Below, in pieces: positions 1,904 through 34,720 of a DNA stretch of 34,720 bases. Source of the stretch: Desulfocapsa sp. GTDB lineage: Bacteria; Desulfobacterota; Desulfobulbia; Desulfobulbales; Desulfocapsaceae. The notes below the pieces were generated by a model that was not told the DNA's origin, searched no databases, and was given only the letters and a program-made list of their open reading frames with translations. The stretch is from the NCBI GenBank assembly GCA_022712895.1, contig JAFLJS010000058.1, positions 1 to 34,720 of the forward strand, written 5' to 3'. Position 1 is the first letter of the stretch. Each line of letters begins with the position of its first letter. The translations under genes and the position numbers were made by a program.

Positions 1904-2482
1904 TTATTTTTTCCTTTCTGCCACAAAGTCACTGAGAAGTTCTCCAGAAGGAAGTTGAGCCATAGGATTAATAGCAAGGAGTTCTTCCCAGACCTGTATC
2001 GCAGCGCTCTTGTCCTTCTTGTCATAGAGTAACACTACCCCCTTATTAAGTCTGGACTGTTCATGGGCAGGAGCAACCTGAATCGCTTGATCAAAAACCA
2101 GTAAGGCCTGATCCGGCTGCCCATCACGACGGTACATCACTCCAAGATCCGTTAATATATCTGGATTTCCAGGGGCAAGTTCCAAAGATTTAAGGTAGGC
2201 CTTTATGGCCTTGGCAGGCTGATCTGTATCAAAGTAGGCATTTCCAAGATGACTCCAGGCGCCAGGGTCATTGGGAGTAGCAAGAACCTGACTTTCCACC
2301 GCAGTCATATTATGAACTCCGCTCTGTTCTTGCGTTACTGCTGGCGGCTGGCCTCCATTTCCTTTGGGTGTTTTATACACTGCAAGCAGCACCCCGCTCA
2401 AAAAGCCGATCAGAAGTGAAACACTGATCAGAATGTATACCCGTTCTTTTTTTACATATCCTGCATATTTTTCTTGTTCCAC
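1904..2482 (-). CDS. Membrane-anchored tetratricopeptide repeat protein
   Basis: The product has 192 residues. A basic N-terminus is followed by one transmembrane segment (about 16-35, VYILISVSLLIGFLSGVLLAV) and a linker, then about three TPR units from about 70 to 175. Typical TPR spacing is seen in WSHLGNAYFDTDQPAKAIKAY, DILTDLGVMYRRDGQPDQAL and RLNKGVVLLYDKKDKSAAI. It resembles the TPR part of cytochrome c biogenesis and assembly proteins (NrfG/CcmI style), but no specific partner can be named. It probably sits at the membrane with the TPR domain as a protein-protein interaction scaffold. No tight operon partner is present: 380 bp lie upstream and about 190 bp downstream. Confidence 0.75.
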   Translation of the reverse strand: MEQEKYAGYVKKERVYILISVSLLIGFLSGVLLAVYKTPKGNGGQPPAVTQEQSGVHNMTAVESQVLATPNDPGAWSHLGNAYFDTDQPAKAIKAYLKSLELAPGNPDILTDLGVMYRRDGQPDQALLVFDQAIQVAPAHEQSRLNKGVVLLYDKKDKSAAIQVWEELLAINPMAQLPSGELLSDFVAERKK

Positions 2483-32288: not shown

Positions 32289-33047
32289 TCAACTCATATG
32301 GGCTACAATGAGGGTAATGTCATCTCGTCCATTTTTTGCTATTGCCTGTGACAGCAACTGTCCGGCAGTATCTTCGGGGCTGGCTCCATCCTTCATTATC
32401 TGTTCAATCTCCTGAAACAAAATAACATCATGGAGCCCGTCAGAAGATAATAAGATACGATCACCAGGTTTGATATCGATGGTGTTAATACAGACATCCT
32501 CTATGTGCTCATCGGTACCCACCACTTGGGTTAACATATTGCGATAGAGGCCGCTCTCTGCCGTTTCCGCAGTCATAGTGCCTCGCTCCACCATCTCCTG
32601 GACAAAAGTGTGATCGGTTGTCAATAAGCTCAACTTTTCATCATGTAAGCTATAAATACGGGTATCACCAACGTGGGCGATTACAGCTTTCCCGCCCGAT
32701 AGTACAAACGCCGAGAGGGTCGTCCCCATATGCTCACAAGCCGGATTTTTCCCGGCGTATAACCTGAGCTGCTCATCAATGTCAAAAAAAATCTTCACCA
32801 ACTCACCCTGAAGGTCTTTCACAGAACCCTTCTTCCGCGTAAAGAGAGCATCTACCAGGCCATCACAAGCCAACATACTGGCAAGTTCACCGCATGGATG
32901 CCCTCCCATTCCATCTGCAACAGCAAATAACATAAAATACTCATTCAATGCGGCAGCTTGTCTGTCACCTAACTCAATTCTATAGGAGTCTTCATTGTTG
33001 CTTCGTTTTAAACCAGTTTCGCTTCGCACTGCGTATTGAACATGCAT
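32289..33047 (-). CDS. PP2C-type protein phosphatase
   Basis: The 252-residue phosphatase is soluble and metal-dependent. It has the N-terminal motif TGLKRSNNEDSY (11-22), FAVADGMGGHPCGE, AHVGDTRIYS, LLSSDGLHDV and a final DDITLIV that supplies metal ligands. It should reverse phosphorylation by the kinase encoded 67 bp downstream. The pair is a typical bacterial Ser/Thr signalling unit. The ATG has AAAAGGAA upstream. A PilZ-like gene lies 90 bp upstream on the same strand. Confidence 0.93.
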   Translation of the reverse strand: MHVQYAVRSETGLKRSNNEDSYRIELGDRQAAALNEYFMLFAVADGMGGHPCGELASMLACDGLVDALFTRKKGSVKDLQGELVKIFFDIDEQLRLYAGKNPACEHMGTTLSAFVLSGGKAVIAHVGDTRIYSLHDEKLSLLTTDHTFVQEMVERGTMTAETAESGLYRNMLTQVVGTDEHIEDVCINTIDIKPGDRILLSSDGLHDVILFQEIEQIMKDGASPEDTAGQLLSQAIAKNGRDDITLIVAHMS

Positions 33048-33137
33048 GAATATTTCCTTTTTGAGGTTGTAGTTACGGCGAAGAGCATAATGGCGTACTC
33101 ATAGAAAAAAAGCTTACCACACTCAGTGGGCACTTCC

Positions 33138-33578
33138 TCAAAGGCAGGAGAAGGCTCCCGGTTTGTTTTGCAAACCACTAACAAATCGCAACCATTCAGA
33201 AGAGGCTGTGTTCAACTGAAAACCTATGGTTTTATACATTCCACCATTTGTTGTTTTCGACCAACGAGAGTGCAGAGAAATTTTAAAATTATGCAAAGGC
33301 GAAAGAATCAAGGCCGTGAATTTTTCTGTGGTTTCGTTTAAATTGCTTGGGATTTGAGTGAGTCGTACCCCCTTTTTTGACAAATCATCCACTATGCACA
33401 GAAAACGTGAGTGCCCATCATCAATCATTGCCATAAGCCCAAGAACCCTGCAACGATGGTCATTTTTTTGTGTATTTCCATCGGAGTCATACCGCAAGAC
33501 ATAACGCCTGTCCAAGCAGAGAATGCCTCTGATAGCACCACGATGACCAGGTGTGGTTCTAGTCCCTAAAGTGTTCAT
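33138..33578 (-). CDS. PilZ-like domain protein
   Basis: This 146-residue soluble protein has a central segment VDDLSKKGVRL (about 63-73) that fits the D-x-S-x-x-G core of PilZ domains. It is preceded by an Arg-rich segment (DHRCRVLGL) and followed by a beta-rich region to KTIGFQL. PilZ domains bind cyclic-di-GMP; the RxxxR motif is not clean here, so binding is uncertain. A strong ribosome binding site (AAAGGAG) precedes the ATG at 33578. It leads the gene group PilZ, PP2C, kinase and may link second-messenger and phosphorylation control. Confidence 0.55.
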   Translation of the reverse strand: MNTLGTRTTPGHRGAIRGILCLDRRYVLRYDSDGNTQKNDHRCRVLGLMAMIDDGHSRFLCIVDDLSKKGVRLTQIPSNLNETTEKFTALILSPLHNFKISLHSRWSKTTNGGMYKTIGFQLNTASSEWLRFVSGLQNKPGAFSCL

Positions 33579-33704
33579 TGTTGGCTCCTTTGATATTTCC
33601 CGGAAATAACAAATACAAAACTAACCCTGCGTATTTACAAAAAAAAGACAAGTATTCAAAAGAACGTTTTCGAGACAGTCTCTTGGTTATCTCACAATGT
33701 TTTA

Positions 33705-33720
33705 TGCAGGTATCATGCCA
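33705..33720 (-). promoter_or_regulatory. Candidate sigma-54 promoter for the PilZ-PP2C-kinase group
   Basis: The minus strand reads TGGCATGATACCTGCA. The GG and GC have the 10-bp spacing of -24/-12 promoters, and the match to TGGCAC-N5-TTGCA lacks only the C of the first box and the first T of the second. It would give a leader of about 115 bp before the PilZ start. Confidence 0.4.
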
Positions 33721-33883
33721 GGCAGAAGAAACCTGGGCCGAAAGAACAGTATGCCCACGACTTTGAACTGTTTTTGTTTTAAAAGATTTGTCATAGTAAA
33801 TAGTTAACCTACACGAAAGATTACAACGGAGTACCATTGCCACCTGTGGGATTCCTCTCTGCTTCCTCTTGTATTACGGTAAG

Positions 33884-33900
33884 TGTCTAAATACAGGACA
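33884..33900. promoter_or_regulatory. Upstream activator-type dyad 1 (TGTC-N9-GACA)
   Basis: TGTCTAAATACAGGACA is a dyad with TGTC and GACA arms, extended to GTGTC/GACAC. It is repeated as a second dyad 42 bp downstream, about four helical turns, in the upstream region of the copper ATPase gene. Confidence 0.55.
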
Positions 33901-33925
33901 CCCCGTCGACTACACCCATCCCACA

Positions 33926-33942
33926 TGTCTTATTTATGGACA
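33926..33942. promoter_or_regulatory. Upstream activator-type dyad 2 (TGTC-N9-GACA)
   Basis: TGTCTTATTTATGGACA has the same arm spacing as dyad 1. With the promoter at 34043-34058 it lies about 130 bp upstream of the expected start, in the range typical of sigma-54 enhancer sites. Confidence 0.55.
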
Positions 33943-34042
33943 CCTGCCCTACTGCACAACAAACAGTACCCCTGGTCGACTAACGATTTACTCTTCGCAA
34001 TACAGCAACTTATCAGGCCGCCAGCCATACAAACTTCCTTTC

Positions 34043-34058
34043 AGGCACACCATTTGCA
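34043..34058 (+). promoter_or_regulatory. Sigma-54 promoter for the copper ATPase gene
   Basis: AGGCACACCATTTGCA matches the -24/-12 consensus TGGCAC-N5-TTGCA at all key bases; only the leading T differs. The start point would be about 34069, giving a leader of about 45 bp before the ATG, with a ribosome binding site at 34101-34106. Confidence 0.7.
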
Positions 34059-34113
34059 TTATAAGAAATAGTAGACGTCCAAATACGAGGAGTTTTTTCA
34101 GGAGGTAAACATC

Positions 34114-34720
34114 ATGAAAAAAGCAATCCATACCCACCAGGATCATGGCCATACCCAGACAGACCATTTCACAGATCCGGTCTGCGGCATGAGAACAGAA
34201 GATCCATCTGCTTTCAGCCAATACAAACACAAGGGCAGCAATTATTATTTCTGTAGTGATCATTGTCTTGCCAAATTTAAAGAAGAACCTGGCAACTATG
34301 AGACGGGCAAGATGAAAAAATGTGCCCATGCAGAGCACGGAGAAAAAGAGGATAAGCAAAACTCCCCTGCTGCGCACTCGCATTCCGGGGACAACTCCTA
34401 TACCTGCCCCATGCATCCCGAGATAGTACAAGACACACCCGGTAGCTGCCCCAAGTGCGGCATGGCTCTTGAGCCGCAAACCATTTCCCTGGCAGGTGAG
34501 GAAGAAACCCCTGAATATGAGTATATGAAAAAACGCTTCATCTTTGGAGCGATTCTCACCGTCCCCCTGGTTTTCATCGCCATGCGCGAAATGCTCCCCG
34601 GTGGACACCTCATTGCCAACCTGGGTTCAACCAGAACACTTGGCTGGTGGGAGTTTTTCCTGGCCACACCCGTTGTTCTCTGGGCTGGCTGGCCCTTTTA
34701 CATCCGGGGTGTCCAATCGG
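34114..34720 (+). CDS. copA: Copper-type P1B ATPase with YHS and metal-binding domains, N-terminal part
   Basis: The frame starts at ATG 34114 behind GGAGGT (7-base spacing) and runs 202 codons to the window edge. It has a His-rich start, a YHS domain (about 20-63, DPVCGM and YYFCSDHCLAKF), a second His-rich linker, and a heavy-metal binding domain (YTCPMHPEIVQDTPGSCPKCGMALE, about 96-120), then a first membrane segment (about 141-160) and a second (about 180-200). This is the N-terminal layout of copper-translocating P-type ATPases of the CopA/CopB type. It exports copper from the cytoplasm, and the YHS and metal-binding domains probably bind the metal on entry. The ATP-binding part lies outside the window, so the gene symbol is provisional. 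Its regulation appears to be by sigma-54, see the promoter entry. Confidence 0.9.
   Translation, partial: MKKAIHTHQDHGHTQTDHFTDPVCGMRTEDPSAFSQYKHKGSNYYFCSDHCLAKFKEEPGNYETGKMKKCAHAEHGEKEDKQNSPAAHSHSGDNSYTCPMHPEIVQDTPGSCPKCGMALEPQTISLAGEEETPEYEYMKKRFIFGAILTVPLVFIAMREMLPGGHLIANLGSTRTLGWWEFFLATPVVLWAGWPFYIRGVQS

Follow-up and report, generated by a model that had tools for sequence, protein, structure and literature searches.

A candidate sigma-54 copper regulon with a paired TGTCY-N7-RGACA operator upstream of copA in Desulfocapsa sp.

Genes for copper-exporting ATPases (copA) are often under CueR- or CsoR-type control. Sigma-54 promoters require an ATP-driven activator, so the leakiness and response of a copper pump at such a promoter may differ from those of the same pump under CueR or CsoR control. 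A precedent for sigma-54 copper control is the CorSR system of Myxococcus xanthus. According to the available part of its description, CorSR pairs a kinase with a sigma-54 response regulator and governs both a multicopper oxidase and a copper P-type ATPase that contains a YHS domain; the curA operon of this organism is copper-induced, and four putative sigma-54 promoters are listed (PMC3707914). Compared with this published description, the predicted sigma-54 units reported here likewise precede oxidase and YHS copper ATPase genes. They differ in that the M. xanthus ATPase belongs to one nine-gene operon with the regulator, whereas copA is located on another contig here, and in that no paired operator is seen in the available CorSR description (PMC3707914). 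The first-pass annotation of this DNA had presented sigma-54 control of a copper exporter as notable. The novelty is smaller than that implied because a copper ATPase is already known to be under CorSR control, with putative sigma-54 promoters (PMC3707914). The control type is known, and the available portions of the literature searched yielded no account of this operator or of this set of targets; no description of a sigma-54 copper operator of paired-dyad form was found in the open-licence literature.

The candidate activator of copA, a two-component system encoded on contig C17, is related to the ZraSR and AtoSC systems. Like ZraSR of enterobacteria (PMC4987338, available in part), it combines a membrane kinase with a regulator of the same general kind, and the regulators are 49–52% identical. 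A Met/His-rich periplasmic stretch is found at a similar place in E. coli ZraS, as judged by eye, and exported Met/His-rich proteins are among the targets in relatives. Unlike ZraSR, the C17 proteins score below the NCBIfam cut-offs (276 versus 479 bits for ZraS and 496.1 versus 760 bits for ZraR), and their targets include a copper exporter and oxidases. The operator is absent from the E. coli zraP-zraS region, where the best match to TGTCY-N7-RGACA has 3 mismatches and the next has 4. AtoSC yields the top NCBIfam scores for both proteins (310.2 bits for AtoS and 536.6 bits for AtoC), followed by ZraS and ZraR. In the plasmid collection, AtoC is 48% identical to the regulator, with ZraR ahead by identity. 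However, the AtoSC scores fall below the curated cut-offs (646 bits for AtoS and 714 bits for AtoC), and the neighbours are copper genes here but acetoacetate genes there.

The outer letters of the operator, TGTC...GACA, and the use of a sigma-54 response regulator are shared with GlrR/QseF, whose operator is given as TGTC-N10-GACA in the available parts of two reports (PMC4987338, PMC8745638). In contrast to that operator, both window dyads have N9 and Y/R inner edges, the dyads are paired at 42–45 bp, and the targets are different. In Desulfovibrio alaskensis under copper stress, zraP and heavy-metal ATPase genes are down and one sigma-54 regulator gene is up in the available part of the report (PMC8836040); these data do not bear directly on the C17 system. 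DVU3334 of Desulfovibrio vulgaris, considered as a lead for copper control, was dropped because the available part of PMC4641369 places it under potassium uptake. PMC3333781 gave no match for copper, metal or TGTC.

Organization of the region upstream of copA

The window, which is the whole stretch of 34,720 nucleotides analysed, is contig C41 of a 3.68-Mb assembly of 75 contigs and ends at position 34720. The first-pass annotation had reported two TGTC-N9-GACA dyads 42 bp apart and a near-consensus −24/−12 promoter before copA, and both features stand. The first dyad, TGTCTAAATACAGGACA, occupies positions 33884–33900, and the second dyad, TGTCTTATTTATGGACA, occupies positions 33926–33942. Both dyads match TGTCY-N7-RGACA exactly, carry no strand assignment and are separated by 42 bp from start to start. 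The sigma-54-type element AGGCACACCATTTGCA (GG-N10-GC; 34043–34058, plus strand) agrees with the consensus at 11 of the 12 scored positions and lies 159 bp from the start of the first dyad and 117 bp from that of the second. The copA ATG follows at 34114, and the copA transcript is predicted to start near 34069. An rpoN gene is present in the genome. On the best reading, the two dyads are paired putative enhancer sites for a sigma-54 response regulator.

The copA gene is known here from its N-terminal 202 residues (34114..34720, plus strand) because C41 stops at 34720. This fragment contains YHS and HMBD domains in a Pfam search and probably represents the N-terminus of a YHS/HMBD-type copper P1B ATPase. 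Its homologues are mostly single frames of 730–944 residues, with a few shorter ones, and the homologue from genome G062 passes TIGR01511, the family of copper-translocating P-type ATPases (610.7 bits versus a cut-off of 397). The earlier designation of a copper ATPase is corrected here to a probable one, as it applies to a 202-residue fragment. Elsewhere in the genome, PF00122 is found on contigs C48 and C72 only, and the copA fragment has no other match, so the ATPase core of copA seems to be absent from the assembly. No pair-plus-element unit was found in the stretches around the two other P-type ATPases (C48 and C72).

Control of copA by a CsoR- or CueR-type sensor on a sigma-70 promoter, with the sigma-54 features arising by chance, is hardly credible. 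CueR/CsoR-controlled copA genes share the target type but differ in promoter class, and no such regulator gene is seen beside the assembled part of copA. A regulator gene 3' of copA would be unseen, as that side is absent from the assembly, and one CsoR-family gene is present in the genome (C53). However, this only CsoR-family match (L306:1477–1755, plus strand) directly precedes an MntP-type manganese efflux gene and not copA. No sigma-70-like site was found in 33580–34140, which is weak evidence given an average of 1.1 in shuffled sequences, and the geometry counts in orthologue loci given below rule out chance as the source of the site set.

Other features of the window were observed. Two short frames of 146 and 94 residues between the PP2C gene and copA (33138–33843, minus strand) have no Pfam match. 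A separate sigma-54 element, TGGCACTCCCCTTGCT, is located at 2567–2582 on the minus strand, just 5' of a listed frame (1904–2482, minus strand).

Candidate activator and units within the genome

The only other perfect pair in the genome, C17:9581/9623, also has its dyads 42 bp apart. In minus-strand reading, it follows the membrane kinase and sigma-54 response regulator genes and precedes a copper operon. The products of this operon are a SHOCT protein, a protein with a weak zinc-ribbon match, a Met-rich protein that belongs to no family, a multicopper oxidase and CopB. The oxidase is of the CopA type (TIGR01480, 876.6 bits versus a cut-off of 478.95). The C17 element, TGGTACGGTTTATGCT, scores 10 of 12 and lies 102 bp past the second dyad start.

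The candidate regulator gene (G000:C17:9767–11113, minus strand) adjoins the gene of the membrane sensor kinase and encodes receiver, Sigma54_activat (AAA+) and HTH_8 domains, all over the Pfam cut-off. The loop motif reads GSFTGA in this regulator and in 3 of the 12 aligned sequences and GAFTGA in the other 9. Toward the C-terminus, the residues A-R-Q-T-L, N-K and Y do not vary among 12 orthologues, consistent with a conserved operator. The periplasmic stretch of the kinase, EAGARTTMMHEMMG, is Met/His-rich, with His70 present in at least 90% of 12 sequences, and may bind metal.

All 18 exact TGTCY-N7-RGACA dyads of the genome were checked for a partner at 41–46 bp and an element, a scan that units with two degenerate dyads would escape. 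Six of the 18 fall in four pair-plus-element units. Two of these are the units before copA on C41 and before the oxidase/CopB operon on C17. The third, on C75, precedes an oxidase frame that is open at the fetched end and whose best match is CueO (338.6 bits, below the cut-off of 525). The fourth, on C67, precedes the gene of a DUF4118-HisKA protein, followed by that of an HMA-domain protein. The partner dyads on C67 and C75 contain 2 mismatches each at spacings of 41 and 43 bp, and the elements, both with a score of 11, are located at 114 and 115 bp. For each of the remaining 12 dyads, any potential partner has at least 3 mismatches. Among the exact dyads, those on C20 and C42 share their letters and surroundings; both are located at a contig end, and they probably represent a single site. 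This site lies inside a frame read by eye as thioredoxin reductase and has no partner. The search for paired dyads and for their activator that the first-pass annotation had proposed thus led to a candidate two-component pair adjoining a perfect 42-bp dyad pair and a copper operon, and to looser units on C67 and C75.

Taken together, it is likely that copA belongs to a sigma-54 copper regulon under a ZraSR/AtoSC-type two-component system, which would act through a paired operator of its own. The periplasmic part of the C17 kinase would detect excess metal, most likely copper, and the kinase would phosphorylate its partner sigma-54 response regulator. The phosphorylated regulator would bind both dyads as an oligomer and, using ATP, would open the closed complex of sigma-54 RNA polymerase at 34043–34058, thereby switching copA on. 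The same regulator would also switch on the C17 oxidase/CopB operon, the CueO-like oxidase gene on C75 and the DUF4118-HisKA/HMA operon on C67. The steps from copper through phosphorylation to the open complex are modelled on the family, and we infer regulator binding, phosphorylation, a need for rpoN and copper as the signal. Confidence in this reading is tempered by the C67 unit, which is of a heavy-metal type and not plainly of a copper type, and by the weakness of several copA elements. The suggestion of sigma-54 control through a two-component activator, made in the first-pass annotation, is the one best supported by comparison, given the candidate activator, the copper targets, the geometry and the presence of rpoN. 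Beyond the one published example found, it specifies for such a regulon the operator, the promoter geometry, the activator and the targets, so that the regulon can be tested promoter by promoter.

The pair and the sigma-54 promoter could instead be real and bound by the C17 regulator in response to general envelope or zinc stress, as in ZraSR, with copA as one of several envelope-defence genes. This alternative draws on the closest annotated proteins of the plasmid collection, which are ZraR at 49–52% identity, on the best solved structure, ZraR 1ojl, on the start of ZraS, where a Met/His-rich stretch is found by eye at the same place, and on the targets in relatives, which are often Met/His-rich exported and SHOCT proteins. 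It is nevertheless unlikely, as the four units of the genome precede copA, the CopA-type oxidase/CopB operon, the CueO-like oxidase gene and the HMA-protein operon, and the operator is unlike the E. coli zraP-zraS region even at its best match (3 mismatches).

Recurrence of the putative paired operator in the order

Single dyads are no commoner than chance. TGTC-N9-GACA is found at 63 places in the 3.68-Mb genome versus 94 for the reversed control, and TGTCY-N7-RGACA is found at 18 versus 27. Paired dyads, by comparison, are far beyond chance. Across 257 genomes of the order, TGTC-N9-GACA pairs with a gap of 24–26 bp were found in 6 genomes, at 9 places in all, with 0 control matches. Each of the 18 dyads involved carries Y at position 5 and R at position 13, and neither letter was part of the query. 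TGTCY-N7-RGACA pairs with a gap of 15–40 bp occur in 13 of the 257 genomes, again with 0 control matches. The pair matches of one genome (G083) form a tandem repeat and were left out. An orthologue of the C17 regulator is present in 11 of the 12 pair genomes (11 of 13 with G083 included) versus 55 of 240 others (Fisher 2e-6; searches of 257 and 252 genomes). The 12 include G131, where the pair is spaced at 48 bp, lacks an element and may have arisen by chance. A chance origin is rejected for pairs by the genome, copA-locus and orthologue-locus counts but is not rejected for single dyads.

The orthologue set was obtained from a regulator search of 252 genomes, in which six candidates per genome were scored, so the absence of an orthologue is uncertain. 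Among these candidates, 69 genes from 66 genomes have at least 62% identity and were taken as orthologues; a gap separates them from the next group, which scores about 500 bits or less. A contig search with the regulator gave relatives of at most 54% identity and added no orthologues. The 69 genes form 68 loci of up to 20 kb each, with many stretches ending at contig ends; the G118 and G025 stretches were positioned to take in already known pairs, which introduces a small bias. Exact dyads number 39 in 61 of these loci, versus 3, 3, 6 and 3 for four controls. In the 68 loci, pairs with at most 2 mismatches number 8, 9, 11 and 5 at spacings of 42, 43, 44 and 45 bp (33 in total) and 0–3 at any other spacing from 18 to 120 bp. 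Six control patterns gave no pairs at spacings of 42–45 bp in the same loci.

The sigma-54 element occupies an equally constrained place, mostly 111–118 bp past the beginning of the second dyad. Elements were scored by the number of matches among 12 sigma-54 consensus positions, and the frequency of those with scores of at least 10 is 1.9e-4 per position across the orthologue loci. At 98–128 bp past the second dyad start, 28 such elements are observed versus 0.40 expected, with 1 at 20–97 bp and 7 at 129–399 bp. An element of this quality is found at the expected place for 25 of the 34 pairs with spacings of 41–46 bp; the other 9 (e.g. L127, L128 and L129) lack one. Full units, consisting of a pair with at most 4 mismatches and an element, are present in 40 of the 68 orthologue loci versus 0 of 20 paralogue loci. 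The 28 orthologue loci without a full unit are drawn from a set in which many stretches end at contig ends. The paralogue control comprises 20 of the first 23 paralogue matches, after two further G140 genes and a G144 gene near an orthologue were skipped, and no pair or full unit was found in its 340 kb. The earlier proposal that the dyads occupy the usual place of sigma-54 activator sites agrees with this conserved geometry. What the comparison establishes is the presence of the elements, their geometry, their recurrence ahead of genes for copper and heavy-metal functions, and the association of these elements with loci of the C17 regulator's orthologues.

Before copA itself, the pair is restricted to a minority of loci. 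The copA set comprises 58 of 59 loci, as the stretch of L206 (G083) gave no match and was dropped, and pairs were accepted with at most 4 mismatches and a spacing of 40–45 bp within 320 bp of the assigned start. Eight of the 58 loci have a pair, versus 0.19 on average and 2 at most over 200 rounds of shuffling, and 50 have none within 320 bp. All eight are among the 27 copA loci in orthologue-bearing genomes, of which the other 19 are without a pair. An element with a score of at least 8 is located 111–117 bp beyond dyad 2 in seven of the eight loci and is weak (8–9 of 12) in three of these seven (G026, G030 and G062). In G115, the copA pair is divided between the ends of two contigs, which have 95 bases in common, and a weak element follows dyad 2 at 112 bp; in G229, a pair and an element (113 bp) are located farther 5' of the assigned start than the 320-bp limit. 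Conservation of the dyads in orthologous upstream regions, on which the first-pass annotation had made its proposal depend, is therefore partial: the dyads are found in 8 of 58 copA loci, plus G115 and G229, but are missing from most copA homologues, so the pair is not a general means of copA control.

No regulator orthologue was detected at E 1e-120 among the six candidates scored per genome in G115 or G229, both of which are drafts. These two genomes, each with a copA unit, would be accommodated if some other enhancer-binding protein bound the dyads and the proximity of the C17 regulator were coincidental, and the genome under study holds 30 strong PF00158 matches from which such a protein could come. 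This explanation is very improbable, given that 40 of the 68 orthologue loci but 0 of 20 paralogue loci hold a full unit and that the C-terminal recognition region is conserved in the 12 orthologues.

Targets in relatives

Across the orthologue and copA loci, the unit targets include copA, genes of SHOCT, Met/His-rich exported and outer-membrane efflux proteins and those of one DUF302 and one TPR protein, and the kinase gene itself is a unit target in four loci. Met/His-rich exported proteins follow the pair in many orthologue loci. The three that were scanned have no Pfam family, two of them have no NCBIfam family, and the ZraP matches are weak. Because many of the targets in relatives are small Met/His-rich or SHOCT proteins without known function, the signal may exceed copper.

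Five membrane proteins of 215–238 residues adjoin paired dyads (L221:794–1510, minus strand; L218:1857–2549, plus strand; L132:2068–2715, plus strand; L038:649–1365, minus strand; L043:491–1156, minus strand). The three that were scanned contain DUF4118 and HisKA without an ATPase domain, and the other two are alike by eye. No sigma-54 element was found for the DUF4118-type genes of L038 and L043. The DUF4118-HisKA membrane proteins could be phosphotransfer or feedback partners. Tentatively, the ZraSR/AtoSC-type system may have become a main copper regulator in part of the order, replacing CueR/CsoR-type control of copA through its own operator (two TGTCY-N7-RGACA dyads in a 42–45 bp step, approximately 113 bp before the sigma-54 element) and inducing ATPase-less DUF4118-HisKA proteins that possibly feed back on the phosphorelay. 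This wider reading, which is possible but doubtful, is also tempered by the heavy-metal character of the C67 unit and by the several weak copA elements.

In genome G097, beside what seems by eye to be the same PP2C gene as in the window, a pair and an element precede the genes of a DUF4118-HisKA protein, a TolC-like protein and a CusB-type adaptor. When L218:423–5705 is set against window positions 32289–34720, copA is found in one genome and TolC-like and CusB-type efflux genes are found in the congeneric one, with the same enhancer layout ahead and seemingly the same PP2C gene adjoining.
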